Of a DNA stretch of 64,000 nucleotides, positions 36,490 to 44,866 are shown in pieces (positions within the stretch are counted from its first letter, which is position 1; each line of letters opens with the position of its first letter). A program made the translations under genes and the position numbers. The notes under the pieces are model-generated. The model had not been told where the DNA came from, did not search any database, and saw only the letters and a list, made by a program, of their open reading frames with translations. Source of the DNA: Martelella radicis (GTDB taxonomy: Bacteria; Pseudomonadota; Alphaproteobacteria; Rhizobiales; Rhizobiaceae); NCBI RefSeq assembly GCF_014196625.1, contig NZ_JACIDZ010000001.1, positions 620,001 through 684,000 on the forward strand, in the 5' to 3' direction.

Positions 36490-36505
36490 GAGAGGGAATG
36501 AGTTG

Positions 36506-36688
36506 ATGGACACCAACAGTCGAAAGATCATCAAACACTTGGAGAATGATGGCTTCGAACTGGTCAAGGTGACGGGGTCGCACCACAAGTTCAAAAAGGA
36601 CGACAAGACCGTCACCGTCCCTCATCCCAAGAAAGACTTGCCGATTGGCACAGTGCGCAACATCTACAAGCAAGCCGGTTGGCTGTAA
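36506..36688 (+). CDS. hicA: HicA-family mRNA interferase toxin
   Basis: A 60-residue toxin with the double-stranded-RNA-binding-like fold. The catalytic histidine is in GSHHKF (residues 24-29), and the C-terminal VPHPKKDLPIGTVRNIYKQAG is the family hallmark. HicA cleaves mRNA and blocks translation when HicB is lost. Start ATG 36506 follows GAGGGA. The gene is oriented against the phage late operon and sits between tail genes I and K, so it is an acquired cassette that may stabilise the prophage or act in defence. Confidence 0.95.
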   Translation: MDTNSRKIIKHLENDGFELVKVTGSHHKFKKDDKTVTVPHPKKDLPIGTVRNIYKQAGWL

Positions 36689-36703
36689 GGAAAGGAAAGC
36701 GCC

Positions 36704-37096
36704 ATGCATTACTACATTGCAGTGGTTCATCAGGAAGGCGACAGCGCTTTTGGTGTGCACTTTCCGGATGTTCCCGGCTGCTTCTCGGCCGCCGACGACA
36801 TGAATGATCTTCTGGCCAATGCAAGCGAAGCGCTTGCGCTCCACCTGGAAGGCGAGGATCTGCCCGAGGCGCGCTCACTCGACGCCGTTCGCGCTGATAG
36901 CGACGTGGCACGTGATCTGGCCGAGGGCGCCTTTCTGCTTGCCGTGCCCTTCATCCAATTGAGCGGCAGAACCACCAAGGCCAACATCACTATGGATGCA
37001 GGCCTCCTGAGCGCGGTCGATCAGTATGCAAAAGCGCACGGTCTGACACGATCCGCGTTCCTGGCCGATCTGGCACGCCGCGAAATCGCAAGCTGA
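36704..37096 (+). CDS. hicB: HicB-family antitoxin
   Basis: A 130-residue antitoxin. The N-terminal RNase-H-like fold (YIAVVHQEGDSAFGVHFPDVPGCFSA) neutralises HicA, and the C-terminal ribbon-helix-helix (RTTKANITMDAGLLSAVDQYA) binds DNA and represses the promoter. It begins 15 bases after hicA and is co-transcribed with it. Confidence 0.95.
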   Translation: MHYYIAVVHQEGDSAFGVHFPDVPGCFSAADDMNDLLANASEALALHLEGEDLPEARSLDAVRADSDVARDLAEGAFLLAVPFIQLSGRTTKANITMDAGLLSAVDQYAKAHGLTRSAFLADLARREIAS

Positions 37097-38325: not shown

Positions 38326-39081
38326 TCAGGTGTTTGCCCGACCGACGCCGGGAAAGGCCCGGGTCGGCAGATCGCCATGGCCGAAGCGCTTGACGCAGCC
38401 CGATTGCAGAAGCTTGCTGCAGCGATCCTCCGACGCCGAAACCGCATTGCCTTTCGCATCAAAACAGGCGGAGCCCGCATAGGGGCATGTGGCCCTGGAA
38501 TAGTCGAACGAACCGGTTTCCGGATCGAAGCGCCGATAGGTATGCGTGCAGGCGCTCTGGATGACCTGCCGGCCGGGGAGCTTTCGACCCTGTTGATCAA
38601 TCGCGGCGGCCAAGGTCCACTCGATATAGACCCGGTTTTGGTTGGTCTTCTGCTCGATCCGATAGACATCGACCGGAAAATGCGCGTCCGGATCCGCATC
38701 TTCCATACCGTCGAGAAAGCGTCGAAAGGTGCGGATGCGCCGGAAGGTCGCGCCCACCAGGTCGCCGAATTCGTTGACCACGGCCGACAACACGCCGGAG
38801 ACATTCGCGACCTTCAGCGTCGGGCGCGGCATCGTGCCCTGCGAGGACATCTCCCAGCCATCGGTCTCGATCGGCGTCGGCGCATAGACATTGCCGCAGA
38901 AGGACACCGGCGCTTCCTCGAAGGCCGATGACGTGAAGCGATAGATGCCGCCGCCGATGACGGAGGCATCAAGTTCATAGAGGTGGATGATATCATCGCT
39001 CACCAGCCCCTGCGCTGTCTGCGACAGGCCGTTTCCCGCCTGCTCGACAACCAGCATCGTGCCATAATGCGATCCCGTCAT
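38326..39081 (-). CDS. L: Minor tail protein, lambda L-like (Fe-S cluster type)
   Basis: A 251-residue tail-tip protein. The N-terminal part (DDIIHLYELDAS, YRFTS) is the conserved beta barrel of L. Five cysteines lie in the C-terminal half (178, 199, 206, 221, 229; for example TCPYAGSAC); four of them should bind the [4Fe-4S] cluster known for lambda gpL. It overlaps the upstream gene by four bases. Confidence 0.88.
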   Translation of the reverse strand: MTGSHYGTMLVVEQAGNGLSQTAQGLVSDDIIHLYELDASVIGGGIYRFTSSAFEEAPVSFCGNVYAPTPIETDGWEMSSQGTMPRPTLKVANVSGVLSAVVNEFGDLVGATFRRIRTFRRFLDGMEDADPDAHFPVDVYRIEQKTNQNRVYIEWTLAAAIDQQGRKLPGRQVIQSACTHTYRRFDPETGSFDYSRATCPYAGSACFDAKGNAVSASEDRCSKLLQSGCVKRFGHGDLPTRAFPGVGRANT

Positions 39082-39446
39082 TTGACCAGCGCCACGATCT
39101 CGGAAGCTGTCGTGCCCGTCGCCAGCACCTTGTGGGCGGCGACCGGCAGAAGCGTGCCGCTCTGGCAGTGATAGACGGCCACGCCACCGCCCGCCTCGAT
39201 CGCGACCGCACCGCCAAAGCCGACAAAGAGCGTCAGGACATCCTCCAGCACCGCATCATCGGATGGCGTCACCGCCTTGTGTCGGCGGGCCGGGGTGACG
39301 ATCTCCACCGCTTCGCGGACCGCTTCCACCAGCGCTGCCGCTTCGGCTGAGAAGCCATGGCGCGGACTGATTGACCCGTCCGGATTGGTCTCGGCGGCAA
39401 TCGGACGCTGGACACCCGTGGCGTCATAGACTTTCAGCTCCGTCAT
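39078..39446 (-). CDS. Spike-base-like phage protein (first copy)
   Basis: A 122-residue protein. The C-terminal 70 residues show the RCAP_rcc01079-type 'spike base' pattern: V-T-P-S-D-D, TLFVGFGGAVAIEAGG, SGTLLPVAAHKVLATGTTASEIVALV. A second gene with the same pattern lies at 42785-43036. It sits between M and L, where lambda has no gene, so it likely belongs to the tail tip or a decoration of it. Exact function unknown. Confidence 0.65.
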   Translation of the reverse strand: MTELKVYDATGVQRPIAAETNPDGSISPRHGFSAEAAALVEAVREAVEIVTPARRHKAVTPSDDAVLEDVLTLFVGFGGAVAIEAGGGVAVYHCQSGTLLPVAAHKVLATGTTASEIVALVK

Positions 39447-39790: not shown

Positions 39791-41709
39791 CAGAACGGCC
39801 CTCCTGCAAGCATGCCCCGCGCCCGGGCGTTTTCCTGAAGACGCCTGTCGACGACGGCGTCGATCTGTTTGCGGAATTCCTTCCCCATCGCCACGGCATC
39901 CTTCGGATCCGTGCTCTCCGGAACCGACACATTGATATCGCCAATGCTGACCGAGCTGATCATCGATCCCGAAGACAACGTTGAGCTGACCGCTCCAAGC
40001 CGGTGATTGGGAATGATCTCGCCGCCGCGCGGCAGTTTCAAAATCTCCGGCCCGCGCTCGCCAACCAGCGCCATGCCGCCCTGGGTGAAGTTCGTGCCCG
40101 TGGCATGGGTCGGCAGGAAGCCACTAAGCAGCCCGCCACCCAACAAACCGCCAAGCGGTCCGTCGCCGAAGAGCGCCGCCTGCGCTGCCGCCTCGATCAG
40201 CTTGTTGATCATGCTGTCGAGGGCGGCATTGCCGGTCTCGATTGCCGGTATCAGCGCCAGGAAGCTGTCGCGGGCCGTATCGCGGAAGAATTCGGCCGTA
40301 TCGGCGGCGGCTTCCTGCTTGTACCTCTGTTCCTCGATCGCAAATGTCAGCTCCCGGATCGAGGCTTTTTCAGCGTCGGTCGCGGCCGTGCCGGCACGGC
40401 GGAGATTTTCGAAGACCTTCTTCTGGTCCGCCGTCATCTCGGTCATCCGCAGTTCGTCCTGCAGCGCCTGAATGAGTTTTTCGACAGCCTCGCGTTCGCG
40501 ATCGACCGCAGTGGAAGCCGAGCCACCGCCGCCGGATTTGCCGTTGCTTCGCCGCGATGTCTTGGCCGCAAGCCGGGCCTCGGCCTGGGCCCGCACCATT
40601 TCCTTTGTCGGCGCGCCGCCCGCGTCCTCATAGAGCTTGCGGACGGTGGCCATTTCCTTTTCCAGCGCGAGCTGGTCCGAGGTCAGGTCGTTCTGCCGCT
40701 CCAGTTCCGCCGTCACCTCGCGGTTGGCGGCCATTTTCTGCTCATAGATTTCGCGGCCGGCATTATAGTCCGCGTAGTCGGCAGCCATGTCATAGCCGGT
40801 TGTCACATCGACGGGAGGGAGCGCTATTGTCCCATCGGCCATGGCGCCCATTTTGGCGCCGGCCTCGGCGGCACGCAGCCCCACCCGCGCATTCTGGATG
40901 GCTGTGCTCAGGTCCTGCATCTTGCCGATCAGGCCGCTGATCAGCCCGCCGATATCGACCAGCGCCCCTTTGACATTGGTGCCGATGATCAGCGCCATGG
41001 TTTCCCATTCGGCGTTGATGTCTTCCGCCTGTTGCAGAAGCTCGTCATCCATCACCGCGCCCATGTCCCGGGCCTCTTCCCGGGCATCCGCAATGCTCTG
41101 GCCGGTATCGTCCATAAGCCCAGCAAAATCCTCCGCAGCCGTGCCGCCGAAGATCTCGTCCAGAACCCGGATCTGCGCTGCCCTGTCGAGCTCGCGGATC
41201 TTGCCGATCAGCGTTTCGAACATCGCCGCCGGGTCTTCCAGCATGCGGGTGAGCTGCCGGGCGGAAAGGCCGAGACGCAGAAAAGACTCGGCAGCAGACC
41301 CACCACCAGTCTTGACGAATTCATCGGCGCGAAGCTGCATCTCTTTCAGGCCATCGGTCAAAGCGTTGAGCTCGATACGATTCTTGACCGCCGCATAGCG
41401 CAGTTCCTGGAACGCCTCGAAATCGACGCCGGCGGTCTTTGCCGCCTTGCCGAGATCCGCCACGGCGTCGACGGCCTTCTGCGTTTCGCTGACGATCACG
41501 CCGAGACCGAGGGAGGCGGCAAGGCCCGCCGGGCCGCCGCGCAATGCCCCGAAGATGCCATCCAGTCCTCCAATCTTCTTTTTGATCGAAAGGAACGAGC
41601 TTGCCGTGTCGTTGGCAGCGGTGCGCGCCTGCATCCGGACCCGGGTCATCGCGGTTCTGAATTCGCGATCATCGGCGCCGATCGTGACAGGAATATCCGG
41701 TCTGCTCAT
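39790..41709 (-). CDS. H: Tail tape measure protein (lambda H-like)
   Basis: A 639-residue protein that sets tail length and forms the injection channel. It is helical and coiled-coil rich (residues 100-450), with a hydrophobic glycine-rich segment at about 505-560 (AALFGDGPLGGLLGGGLLSGFLP) and the C-terminal VGERGPEILKLPRGGEIIPN element typical of tape measures. At 639 residues it suggests a tail of about 95 nm if the usual 1.5 angstrom per residue holds. Start ATG 41709 overlaps the stop of the GT frameshift product (ATGA). Confidence 0.93.
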   Translation of the reverse strand: MSRPDIPVTIGADDREFRTAMTRVRMQARTAANDTASSFLSIKKKIGGLDGIFGALRGGPAGLAASLGLGVIVSETQKAVDAVADLGKAAKTAGVDFEAFQELRYAAVKNRIELNALTDGLKEMQLRADEFVKTGGGSAAESFLRLGLSARQLTRMLEDPAAMFETLIGKIRELDRAAQIRVLDEIFGGTAAEDFAGLMDDTGQSIADAREEARDMGAVMDDELLQQAEDINAEWETMALIIGTNVKGALVDIGGLISGLIGKMQDLSTAIQNARVGLRAAEAGAKMGAMADGTIALPPVDVTTGYDMAADYADYNAGREIYEQKMAANREVTAELERQNDLTSDQLALEKEMATVRKLYEDAGGAPTKEMVRAQAEARLAAKTSRRSNGKSGGGGSASTAVDREREAVEKLIQALQDELRMTEMTADQKKVFENLRRAGTAATDAEKASIRELTFAIEEQRYKQEAAADTAEFFRDTARDSFLALIPAIETGNAALDSMINKLIEAAAQAALFGDGPLGGLLGGGLLSGFLPTHATGTNFTQGGMALVGERGPEILKLPRGGEIIPNHRLGAVSSTLSSGSMISSVSIGDINVSVPESTDPKDAVAMGKEFRKQIDAVVDRRLQENARARGMLAGGPF

Positions 41710-42340
41710 CTTCGCTCAGCCTTCTGACGAATGGATTTTTGGGGACCGTGATCCGCGACAATCTCGCGGATGCGGGTGCGGCTGACGGGTGAAGTCTGCG
41801 GGGACCGGCCCGTTACGCCGGCGATGGTCATGACAAGCTCGGAGGGCGTCGCCGCCCAGAAGGTGGCCGGCGTCCAGTGGATCCGCTCGGCGGAAACGGC
41901 AAGCTCGAACAGCGTCCTGACGTGATCGGCAATCAGGACGTCGTCCGAGGCTTTTTTCCGGTGACAGCCGCCTCCACGTCTTCCAGAGGCGAGGAGGTTT
42001 CGCGCAGCGCATTGCCGGCCTCGATATGAGCGGTCAGCGCCTGTTCGATGCCGATGCGCCAGCTTGCCTGGTCGGCAGCCGAGATGTTCTTGCCCGACAA
42101 CACCCGGGCGGCAAGCGCGGCCCTGCCCTCGTCATCATCAGCAACGGCAAGGCAGCGGATCGCGCAGGAGACCGCGAAGGGTTCGAAACCGAGCAGGCGC
42201 TGATAGATCTCGTCCATCGTGCGCGCGCCGATGGCCTGCGACAGGTGCATCAGCCCGGCAAAGGTGACGGCGACAACGAAGCTCTCGCTACCGATCGTCA
42301 CCGCCGCCTCGCCGCGCAGCTCATTGGCGAAGGCCATCAT
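41706..42340 (-). CDS. Tail assembly chaperone GT, made by -1 frameshift
   Basis: The zero frame (42340-41933) encodes the 135-residue G-type chaperone. At 41957-41951 the sequence A-AAA-AAG is in the correct phase for -1 slippage. After slippage the frame continues at GCC (41951) for 81 codons and stops with TGA at 41706-41708, overlapping the tape-measure ATG. The extension contains WTPATFWAATPSELVMT and a basic C-terminus, the pattern of the T-like/GTA TAC-6 family. No start codon with a ribosome site precedes the T part, so a frameshift is the natural way to make it. GT would bind the tape measure through T and recruit tube subunits through G. Confidence 0.78.
41933..42340 (-). CDS. Tail assembly chaperone G (GTA gp10-like)
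   Basis: The unshifted product is a 135-residue protein of the GTA-gp10/TAC family (FANELRGEAAVTIGSESFVVAVTFAGLMHLSQAIG). It should coat the tape measure before tube polymerisation. It starts at ATG 42340 (or 42337), overlapping the stop of the tail tube gene as TGATG. It ends nine codons after the slippery site. Confidence 0.85.
   Translation of the reverse strand: MMAFANELRGEAAVTIGSESFVVAVTFAGLMHLSQAIGARTMDEIYQRLLGFEPFAVSCAIRCLAVADDDEGRAALAARVLSGKNISAADQASWRIGIEQALTAHIEAGNALRETSSPLEDVEAAVTGKKPRTTS
41951..41957 (-). promoter_or_regulatory. Programmed -1 ribosomal frameshift site A-AAA-AAG
   Basis: On the minus strand the codons are GGA AAA AAG, so the heptamer A-AAA-AAG is in the X-XXY-YYZ phase. 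This is the same heptamer used in dnaX and one of the most efficient in bacteria. It lies at the G/T junction. A downstream GC-rich stem could stimulate it, but I could not assign one clearly. Confidence 0.75.
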
Positions 42341-43036: not shown

Positions 43037-43426
43037 AAGAAACACTCCTTCTTCGTTGGCTTTCAGAGCCCCGAAAAACTTGACGTACCGAGAAGCGATT
43101 GGACGCGGTCAGAGACCGGGAATGGAGAACGCAAGACAATTCGACGCACTCGCCGCGATCAAGCCGACTTGACTCGCGATCGGTTCGGGGACACACATGC
43201 CCCATGAACAACACGCGTCTCCATCTTTGCACTCAGCGGGTTCGCCTCATCGTAGGCAAATAACCCCCGACCCGGTCGCGTCGCGCCCCGGTCGTGGGGC
43301 ATAGGCAGTTTGCCACTGGGCGTTCATTTCGACCCACATTCAGCGACACAAGATCACAAACCGCAGAGACAACACTCGCACTCGCGAGGTTCATTATTGC
43401 TGGCTCGCTCAGCACGGAGATGCACT
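43037..43426. other. Intergenic region before rnk
   Basis: About 390 bases between the divergent spike-base and rnk genes hold no supported gene. They must contain the rnk promoter; I find no clear hexamers or palindrome. It is the left border of the second cargo cassette. Confidence 0.35.
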
Positions 43427-43846
43427 ATGCCCGCCAACCAGAAGAGAAACCGCAAGCCGGCGATCGTATTAACGAAAACCGATCACAAGCGCCTGTCGCT
43501 TCTTGCCGAACGATTCGCCGACCAAAATGCAGAACTTGCTGATTTCCTTCTCAGTGAACTCGAGCGCGCCCGCATTGTTGAAGATGGGCGCATCGCAGCA
43601 GACGTGGTGCGAATGGACTCGTCCATTCGCTTCACGACGGATCTCAATGAAGACAGGCACGTCACGCTTGTTTACCCCGGAAAGGCCAATATCGCCGAAG
43701 GCAAAATCTCTGTTCTTACTCCAATAGGCTCCGCGCTGATCGGGCTCAAAGTCGGACAATCAATCGACTGGACGACGCGAGACGGCCGGGTTTGCCGGCT
43801 GACCGTAGAATCAGTCAGCCATATGCAGGACCAGACCGCCCTCTGA
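43427..43846 (+). CDS. rnk: Rnk-like nucleoside diphosphate kinase regulator (GreA/GreB C-terminal fold)
   Basis: A 139-residue protein: an N-terminal coiled coil (LTKTDHKRLSLLAERFADQNAELADFL), and an FKBP-like C-terminal domain (VTLVYPGKANIAEGKISVLTPIGSALIGLKVGQSIDW). Rnk proteins bind RNA polymerase like Gre factors. Start ATG 43427 follows CGGAG. It is the first of three rightward cargo genes inserted in the late region. It may tune host or phage transcription; that is an inference. Confidence 0.88.
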   Translation: MPANQKRNRKPAIVLTKTDHKRLSLLAERFADQNAELADFLLSELERARIVEDGRIAADVVRMDSSIRFTTDLNEDRHVTLVYPGKANIAEGKISVLTPIGSALIGLKVGQSIDWTTRDGRVCRLTVESVSHMQDQTAL

Positions 43847-43969
43847 GCAACTCAGTCTCAGGATGGGCTGCACCTTGCCGTCCCGCGAGGACGCGTCTCA
43901 CCAGAGGCGAACGGTCTGCTCCCTTGATCCCCACTCATTGACGCTCTTTCGAGCAAGGACAGAAATCCA

Positions 43970-44866
43970 GTGACTACCAAGCTTCATCTCGATCAGCCAC
44001 GCAGCCGTGCGGAATTTACACAAGGCCTGATATGGGTCGCACTGAGCATGGCCGCCTTTATCGGAATGTCTGTCGGATCCCGCGAACTCGCGACGTCGCT
44101 CTCCATACGGCAGGTCCTGTTCTTCCGGGCTCTCGTCGGCTTGGGGATCATCATCGTCCTGGCAAGACAATTCCTGCCCGAATTAAGACAGGCAAAAATG
44201 GTCCGGCTACATATTGTGCGGAACGTCGTCCATTTCACAGGACAGTATTTCTGGACAATCGGCGTTGTGCTCCTGCCGCTGGCATCGGTCTTTGCGCTGG
44301 AATTTACGATGCCCATATGGGTTGCTTTCTTTGCCTGGCTATTCCTCAAGGAGAGGCTGACACGGCCGCGCATACTGGCCACGTTGGGCGGTTTCATTGG
44401 CGTACTGGTGATTGCTCGGCCCGGCCTTGGAATGATCGATCCGGCAGCCGGTCTCGTGCTGCTGGCCGCAGCATTCTACGCTTTGGCTCTCATCTGCGTG
44501 AAAGAGCTGACGCGCGAGTGCTCTCCCGGTGTGATTGTCGTATGGATGATTCTTATCCAGCTGCCGCTGGGTTTTATTGCCGCTCTGACAGACTGGCATC
44601 CAGTCAGTGTAGCCGATGTGCCATGGATGCTGCTTGCTGGTGTCGGTGCGCTCAGCGCTCATTTCTGCCAGGCGCAAGCGCTCAAAAGGCTCGAAGCATC
44701 CGTTGTAATTCCGATCGACTTTCTTCGCGTGCCGCTCGCGGCAATCGTTGGTTACTACGCTTACGGCGAAGCCATCGACCTTTGGGTATTCCTGGGCGGG
44801 GCGATAATTCTTCTCTCCAACTATCAGGCCGTACTCAGGGAGCGCAGCAGATATAGCAAGCCGTAG
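43970..44866 (+). CDS. DMT-superfamily transporter (EamA domain)
   Basis: A 298-residue inner-membrane protein with ten predicted helices in two EamA repeats (GLIWVALSMAAFIGMSVGSRELA; VIPIDFLRVPLAAIVGYYAYGE). GTG 43970 is preceded by AAGGAC and gives the normal family length. DMT proteins export metabolites or drugs; the substrate is unknown. It is the second gene of the rnk cassette. Confidence 0.9.
   Translation: MTTKLHLDQPRSRAEFTQGLIWVALSMAAFIGMSVGSRELATSLSIRQVLFFRALVGLGIIIVLARQFLPELRQAKMVRLHIVRNVVHFTGQYFWTIGVVLLPLASVFALEFTMPIWVAFFAWLFLKERLTRPRILATLGGFIGVLVIARPGLGMIDPAAGLVLLAAAFYALALICVKELTRECSPGVIVVWMILIQLPLGFIAALTDWHPVSVADVPWMLLAGVGALSAHFCQAQALKRLEASVVIPIDFLRVPLAAIVGYYAYGEAIDLWVFLGGAIILLSNYQAVLRERSRYSKP

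Follow-up and report, generated by a model that had tools for sequence, protein, structure and literature searches.

The tail module of a prophage in Martelella radicis very probably holds a programmed -1 ribosomal frameshift of the phage lambda type, by which the tail assembly chaperones G and T are joined. The prophage lies in the 64,000-nucleotide (nt) stretch of contig NZ_JACIDZ010000001.1 from position 620,001 to 684,000, which is referred to as the window and whose numbering is used throughout. The mechanism is of a known type, and the window prophage is a further member. A second result concerns gene transfer agents (GTAs), where the original prediction had taken the corresponding genes g10 and g10.1 to be two separate genes. 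As judged from sequence, frameshifting looks widespread in GTAs too, and this correction is more interesting than the frameshift in the window itself.

Position and phase of the slippery site

G and T are encoded in two overlapping frames that follow the tail tube gene and precede the tape-measure gene. The features are as follows:

42756-42340, minus strand: tail tube protein gene, 138 amino acids (aa); PF06199, 54.5 bits versus a cut-off of 23.8
42340-41933, minus strand: G-type tail assembly chaperone open reading frame (ORF), 135 aa, stop TGA at 41935-41933; from the ORF list and phrog_13724 (144 bits)
41971-41975, minus strand: GGAGG, Shine-Dalgarno-like, read from the sequence; putative stimulator
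41957-41951, minus strand: slippery heptamer A AAA AAG in the G reading phase, read from the sequence; same position in relatives
41904-41949, minus strand: predicted mRNA hairpin 3' of the heptamer, inner arms 41940-41932 and 41921-41913; folding z -2.87
41706-41951, minus strand: T-type extension in the -1 frame, 81 codons plus TGA at 41708-41706; PF09550 match
41709-39790, minus strand: tape-measure protein gene, 639 aa; phrog_10574 (tail length tape measure), 365 bits

The original prediction had placed A-AAA-AAG in the slippery phase, followed by 81 open codons and a TGA overlapping the tape-measure ATG, and all of its coordinates were reproduced. The sequence GGAAAAAAG is located at 41959-41951 on the minus strand, and the G ORF ends in ...GTC ACC GGA AAA AAG CCT CGG ACG ACG TCC TGA. 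Here A AAA AAG (41957-41951) stands in the X XXY YYZ phase for tandem -1 slippage, 22 nt 5' of the G stop. The T frame is open from 42131, the preceding in-frame stop being at 42134-42132. After a slip the -1 frame runs for 81 codons to TGA at 41708-41706, within an ATGA common with the tape-measure start (ATG at 41709). The conserved T motif FWAATPSEL, WTPATFWAATPSEL, is found in the T frame of the window. Between the last upstream stop of this frame and the motif the window has no ATG, GTG or TTG; the earliest ATG, at 41831, lies past the motif. The G stop lies within CTGA, so that a CTG (41936) overlaps it. The site exceeds what chance would give: among 15 chosen prophage ORFs (15,606 nt), only two in-phase heptamers of the form XXXAAAZ or XXXTTTZ were present, the A AAA AAG of G and one in another gene.

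We propose that most ribosomes would translate G and terminate at its TGA (41935-41933). A minority, carrying Lys-tRNAs on AAA in the P site and AAG in the A site, would slip back one base, probably helped by the downstream hairpin and perhaps by the upstream GGAGG, and continue for 81 codons, so that a G-T fusion would be made in smaller amounts. If lambda is a guide, G would coat the tape-measure protein, the T domain would recruit the tail tube protein, and both G and G-T would depart before the tail is completed. Such a frameshift would complete the tail module of the window prophage.

Conservation of the heptamer in phage-type relatives

Relatives were collected by similarity of the G protein, and the heptamer was not used as a criterion. 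They came from genome contigs (7 loci), viral contigs (13, and 80 kept of 87), one phage record and two plasmid records. The resulting phage-type set of 104 loci (the window, L001-L023 and L043-L122), in which several contigs are present twice, collapses into 71 distinct 90-nt junctions, the window included. L024-L042 were left out of these counts, as were relatives from a scan with T, ten of which were viewed singly.

A heptamer at exactly -22 from the G stop was found in 101 of the 104 loci. T was detected in 103 of them and was in the -1 frame of G every time. When only distinct junctions were counted, a canonical heptamer occupied the fixed site in 68 of 71, spelled GGGAAAG in 54, AAAAAAG in 10, AAAAAAA in 3 and GGGAAAC in 1; the remaining 3 were non-canonical. 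L110 (same contig as L198) has a stop codon within the heptamer. L121 is the locus without a detected T, and the same contig, present also as L206, carries an N within G, with GGGAAAG located beyond it. Outside the counted set, a genome of the same family (L031) has G GGA AAT at the identical position, and a more distant one (L032) has GGGAAAC 5' of its G stop. The letters of the slip site thus vary (GGGAAAG, GGGAAAC, GGGAAAT, AAAAAAG, AAAAAAA) while its place and phase are fixed. The G protein of Martelella-type loci is one residue longer, with GKK where other relatives have GK, and for this reason the slip site seems to have been re-made with different letters at the same place. The combination of a separate ribosome-binding site and start for T with no conserved heptamer was not found in close relatives.

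The region is also constrained. In each of two groups, no other nine-codon stretch of G is as conserved at synonymous sites as the one that runs from the slip region to the G stop; it ranks first of 125 in 13 Martelella-type sequences and first of 124 in 63 Sinorhizobium-type sequences, which were taken regardless of their heptamer. An earlier form of this analysis, grouped by heptamer, was discarded as circular, since the grouping makes the slip codons invariant by construction. Beyond the G stop, T has 27, 12 and 42 variable sites at codon positions 1, 2 and 3, respectively (150 nt, 13 sequences). The median ratio of nonsynonymous to synonymous change (dN/dS), taken over pairs with at least 8 differences, was 0.16 (68 pairs), and it was 0.08 in the GGGAAAG group (258 pairs from its first 25 loci). 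By these measures T is under purifying selection. L110 and L121 were omitted from the synonymous-site analysis and from the search for starts within T described below.

Protein families of G and T

The T extension scored 31.7 bits against Pfam PF09550 Phage_TAC_6, above the cut-off of 23.4, and 17.8 bits against NCBIfam TIGR02216, below the cut-off of 56.1. An alignment to both profiles had been suggested; the Pfam match held and the NCBIfam match did not. With the TAC_6 cut-off passed and the heptamer kept in close relatives, the predicted joining of a G-type and a T-type chaperone is supported. In profile-profile comparison (hhalign), T matched ten GTA T proteins with 97.9% probability (E 5.6e-13), and G matched ten GTA G proteins with 85.5% (E 5.7e-6) across 41 columns. 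On these profile matches T is a member of the GTA T family and G is probably a member of the GTA G family. The phage family phrog_13724, which G matches with 144 bits, has no name. The AlphaFold model of G had a pLDDT of 83; that of T was poor (pLDDT 72, pTM 0.47).

From its gene content, the remainder of the window prophage tail is not GTA. Among the tail genes scanned, the tail tip is lambda-like, with minor tail protein L (TIGR01600), an M-family protein (PF05939) and a J-like protein, and the set that would mark an RcGTA-type agent (TIGR02217, TIGR02218 and megatron) was not found.

Candidate stimulators

Most AAAAAAG sequences are predicted to form a stem of up to 14 pairs that starts a few nt 3' of the heptamer. 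The predicted stem of the window is interrupted and starts 1 nt after the heptamer, with a folding z of -2.87. Relative to synonymous recoding of T, z was below -1.65 in eight of the ten distinct AAAAAAG sequences, with a mean of -3.25 for the ten. Stem positions were paired in 90.7% of cells in an alignment of 13 sequences. Upstream, the end of GGAGG lies 13 nt 5' of the window heptamer.

Contrary evidence and other ways to account for T

Several observations weigh against a programmed frameshift in the window, and they are given here together with the other explanations for the layout of T. The likeliest of these others, itself improbable, has T made as a protein of its own. Translation would then reinitiate at the CTG overlapping the G stop (CTGA, 41936) or, for relatives, begin at a codon within T. 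Of the 71 distinct junctions, 70 retain CTGAT at the G stop; in L121 this site is not the true junction. T appears as gene p43, beginning at this CTG, in the record of Sinorhizobium phage phi2LM21, and in S. medicae pMl3 the start of a 65-aa coding sequence (L023:1906-2100) is an ATG located within T. Sinorhizobium-type loci commonly have an ATG of this kind: it lies 50 nt after the G stop in 55 of the 68 analysed, and 18 of 34 Martelella-type loci have a GTG 38 nt after the stop. In all, a possible start within T, 5' of the FW motif, was seen in 76 of 102 loci.

However, the positions of these codons differ among relatives, the remaining 26 loci, including the window, have none before the FW motif, and starting there would delete the invariant Leu-Ile-x-Asp of T. 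The conservation of CTGAT is largely forced by the G stop together with the invariant Leu-Ile, and the window has neither an ATG, GTG or TTG before the motif nor a Shine-Dalgarno-like sequence 5' of the CTG. From -120 to about +14 nt around the G stop, no T start was seen in phage-type loci except a GTG in L110; in L071 the T match starts late and possible starts are listed further in. Separate synthesis of T also leaves unexplained why a heptamer is kept in phase despite changes of its letters.

Frameshifting at the heptamer is favored over a change of frame by transcriptional slippage on the A6/A7 run, which is very improbable. Runs of six or seven A's do occur in Martelella-type relatives, but GGGAAAG, which has no long homopolymer, stands at the same position in 54 of the 71 distinct junctions. 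Six A's are also short for transcriptional slippage. Least probable of all is that T is not expressed, the A run being misread in sequencing or assembly or the gene having decayed: homopolymers are error-prone and damaged copies exist (the stop within the heptamer of L110, the contig N in G of L121), but 68 of 71 distinct sequences share the frame layout with four different heptamers, and the purifying selection on T speaks against decay.

The remaining contrary points concern the parts of the ribosomal frameshift itself. L098 has GGGGAAG in place of a canonical heptamer and its T is nevertheless open. L165 (2441-2560) has only an imperfect site, GAG CAA AAA AGC, with the A6 run in another phase, and would need a single-tRNA slip or another mechanism. 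When synonymous conservation was ranked over three codons, the slip region came second in both groups; the maximum was elsewhere in G (-91) in the Martelella type and in the post-slip overlap in the Sinorhizobium type. The constraint therefore spans the slip site and the overlap together, and dual coding may account for it as much as slipping does. No strong hairpin was predicted for two of the ten AAAAAAG sequences (L011 and L012), any of the three AAAAAAA sequences or 60 of 61 GGGAAAG sequences. Because no compensatory double change was found in the stem among 13 sequences, it is folding energy that argues for the hairpin. Both tRNA-Lys genes, with anticodons UUU and CUU, are present in the host (30 of 45 tRNA loci viewed). 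E. coli is not known to have a tRNA-Lys CUU, and A AAA AAG may slip less in the host than in E. coli because this tRNA is present beside UUU.

G scored 17.3 bits against PF11836 Phage_TAC_11 (GTA gp10), below the cut-off of 27.8. Together with the TIGR02216 score of T, this is a weaker side of the predicted pairing. Finally, the G model had no significant fold match in the PDB; the HK97 tail assembly chaperone 2ob9 came third, with E 2.1.

Probable frameshifting in GTA-type loci

We also examined 177 TAC_6 loci from genomes of the same class as the window. The loci read came in overlapping sets: 30 of 37 genomes, 30 of 31, 30 of 34 and 5 of 5, together with 89 new loci of 156 genomes (29 plus the 60 best-scoring). 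After removal of 17 loci in which T was not in the -1 frame or no G was detected, and of one duplicate, 159 distinct junctions remained. The species are related and not independent, and p-values of the comparisons below are for this reason too small.

The expectation of two separate genes held for part of these loci. A start for T before its domain, counted up to 6 nt into the domain, was present in 67 of the 159 junctions, and many such starts overlap the G stop as ATGA or GTGA. The other 92 had none, and 84 of these had an in-phase XXXYYYZ heptamer in the G/T overlap, versus 10 of the 67 loci with a start. Since the overlap compared is unequal (75 nt without a start, 32 nt with one), the phase control is fairer: heptamers in the two other phases occurred in 10 and 8 of the 92 loci without a start. 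The 84 heptamers comprise 64 CCCTTTN, 10 GGGAAAG, 8 AAAAAAC or AAACCCT and 2 others. CCCTTTN junctions occur in at least seven families (f2, f11, f20, f34, f56, f61 and f177). Family f61 has both solutions, with 20 loci using a start and 8 having CCCTTT without one. GGAGG ending 4-18 nt 5' of the heptamer was found in 32 of the 64 CCCTTTN loci without a start; in 300 shuffles the mean was 5.1 and the maximum 10.

We considered whether CCC TTT merely encodes Pro-Phe at the beginning of T. This is countered by its use: Pro-Phe at this place is coded CCC TTT in 47 of 54 loci with G overlapping, versus 9 of 29 in which G has already ended. In-phase CCCTTTN elsewhere was seen in 22 loci. Five of these have it at -6 or -9, which is the same spot with a later domain match; 2 of the 22 have a start and 2 have a further CCCTTTN at -3.

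Two further patterns were noted among the less common heptamers. GGGAAAG followed directly by a TAA or TAG stop, with no start before T, occurs in L359, L367, L376, L382, L389, L398, L406 and L130. AAACCCT, a possible further slip sequence, stands in the slippery phase near the G stop of L135, L151, L370, L383, L388, L396, L402 and L409, which have no start; in four of these eight loci it overlaps AAAAAAC.

Three observations speak against frameshifting in GTAs. A possible start within the T domain is present in 74 of the 92 loci without an upstream start, yet 63 of 68 loci that do have a proper start contain one too. The W that initiation there would remove is kept in 92 of 92 loci without a start. 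Because such a codon is also present in start-type loci and the W is kept in all no-start loci, it is taken as a residue of the family and not as a start. Secondly, 8 of the 92 loci have no heptamer, the host's own GTA (L024) being one of them. Thirdly, downstream structure is not marked (mean z -0.61, 40 loci).

The host RcGTA-type cluster (G000:C4:37389-37942; L024, L026 and L293) is apart from the window prophage. Its T is in the -1 frame of G, with no start before the domain and no slippery heptamer.

The GTA gene context was examined in five neighbourhoods, and some of the other GTA-type loci may be prophages. Distal tail protein, hub and megatron were above the cut-off in L290, L291 and L294, which are of the CCCTTTN type, and in L293, the host's own. 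In L292 the GTA cluster is partly deleted (G535:C9:766000-782000); a single ORF there runs from the start of the hub gene into the end of the megatron gene, which looks like the result of an in-frame deletion.

On the pattern of starts and heptamers, it is likely that in bona fide RcGTA-type agents of at least four alphaproteobacterial orders, g10/g10.1 are a G/G-T pair produced by a -1 frameshift, for which C CCU UUN with an internal Shine-Dalgarno sequence is the usual site, and that lineages switch between this and a separate start. In the frameshifting lineages, g10.1 would then be the T domain of a fusion and not an independent small gene. We do not rate this higher because starts within T exist in most loci and because the GTA context was examined in five only. 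A search of the open-access literature found no description of a g10/g10.1 frameshift; subscription literature was mostly outside this search, and an earlier description is possible. If the proposal is true, gene callers and GTA surveys may miss or mis-start g10.1, and GTA tail assembly retains the G:GT logic of lambda. A direct comparison of related clusters, some relying on a start codon and others on a frameshift, could test whether the fusion itself is important or just the ratio.

Comparison with known systems

The G/G-T frameshift of lambda was reportedly described by Xu, Hendrix and Duda in 2004. According to the part of PMC5009743 consulted, the two lambda products are made in a ratio of 30:1 and T binds the tube protein. 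The window resembles lambda, as described in that part of the paper, in its place before the tape measure, a -1 shift shortly before G ends, T encoded in the shifted frame and a G-T product expected at a low level (PMC5009743). It differs from lambda in having A AAA AAG, a strong predicted downstream hairpin, an upstream GGAGG and a T of the TAC_6 family. Its relatives are mostly closer in this respect, since GGGAAAG, the heptamer of lambda itself, stands in 54 of the 71 distinct junctions.

In E. coli dnaX and IS3-type cassettes, A AAA AAG lies between a Shine-Dalgarno-like element, some 10 nt 5' of it, and a hairpin that follows after a few nt. The heptamer, hairpin and GGAGG of the window resemble these cassettes, but the gene and its purpose are different, and the efficiency should differ since the host has tRNA-Lys CUU.

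Caulobacter phage phiCbK has a -1 frameshift at AAAAAAC in gp93/gp94, and phage Colossus has GGGAAAC, according to the sections of PMC3556154 seen. As in the window, the frameshift lies in the pre-tape-measure chaperone of an alphaproteobacterial siphophage (PMC3556154), but the heptamers differ from that of the window, and the likeness noted is one of arrangement. In the text available from the following papers, most Rhodobacter capsulatus phages described carry the usual chaperone frameshift (PMC8601537), a +1 shift is proposed in the hydrolase of a Wolbachia GTA (PMC10299305), and g10.1 is excluded from a study of GTA codon usage as shorter than 300 nt (PMC9765227).

With RcGTA g10/g10.1 the window shares a homologous T (97.9%) and probably a homologous G (85.5%, 41 columns), and many GTA-type loci likewise have no T start and an in-phase CCCTTTN, GGGAAAG or AAAAAAC/AAACCCT. 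Other GTA-type loci differ in having a separate T start, often ATGA or GTGA, and the tail tip of the window prophage is of the lambda type. The host genome carries its own GTA cluster elsewhere (G000:C4, L293).

Neighbouring genes in the window

Two groups of genes lie on the plus strand, opposite to the tail genes. A HicA toxin/HicB antitoxin pair (PF07927, PF15919) is present at 36503-37093 among the tail genes, and a GreA/Rnk-like protein and an EamA-family transporter are encoded at 43310-44863 within the structural region. On the minus strand, 39081-39446, between the M-family and L genes, matches 'spike base protein, RCAP_Rcc01079 family' with 62 bits (cut-off 28).

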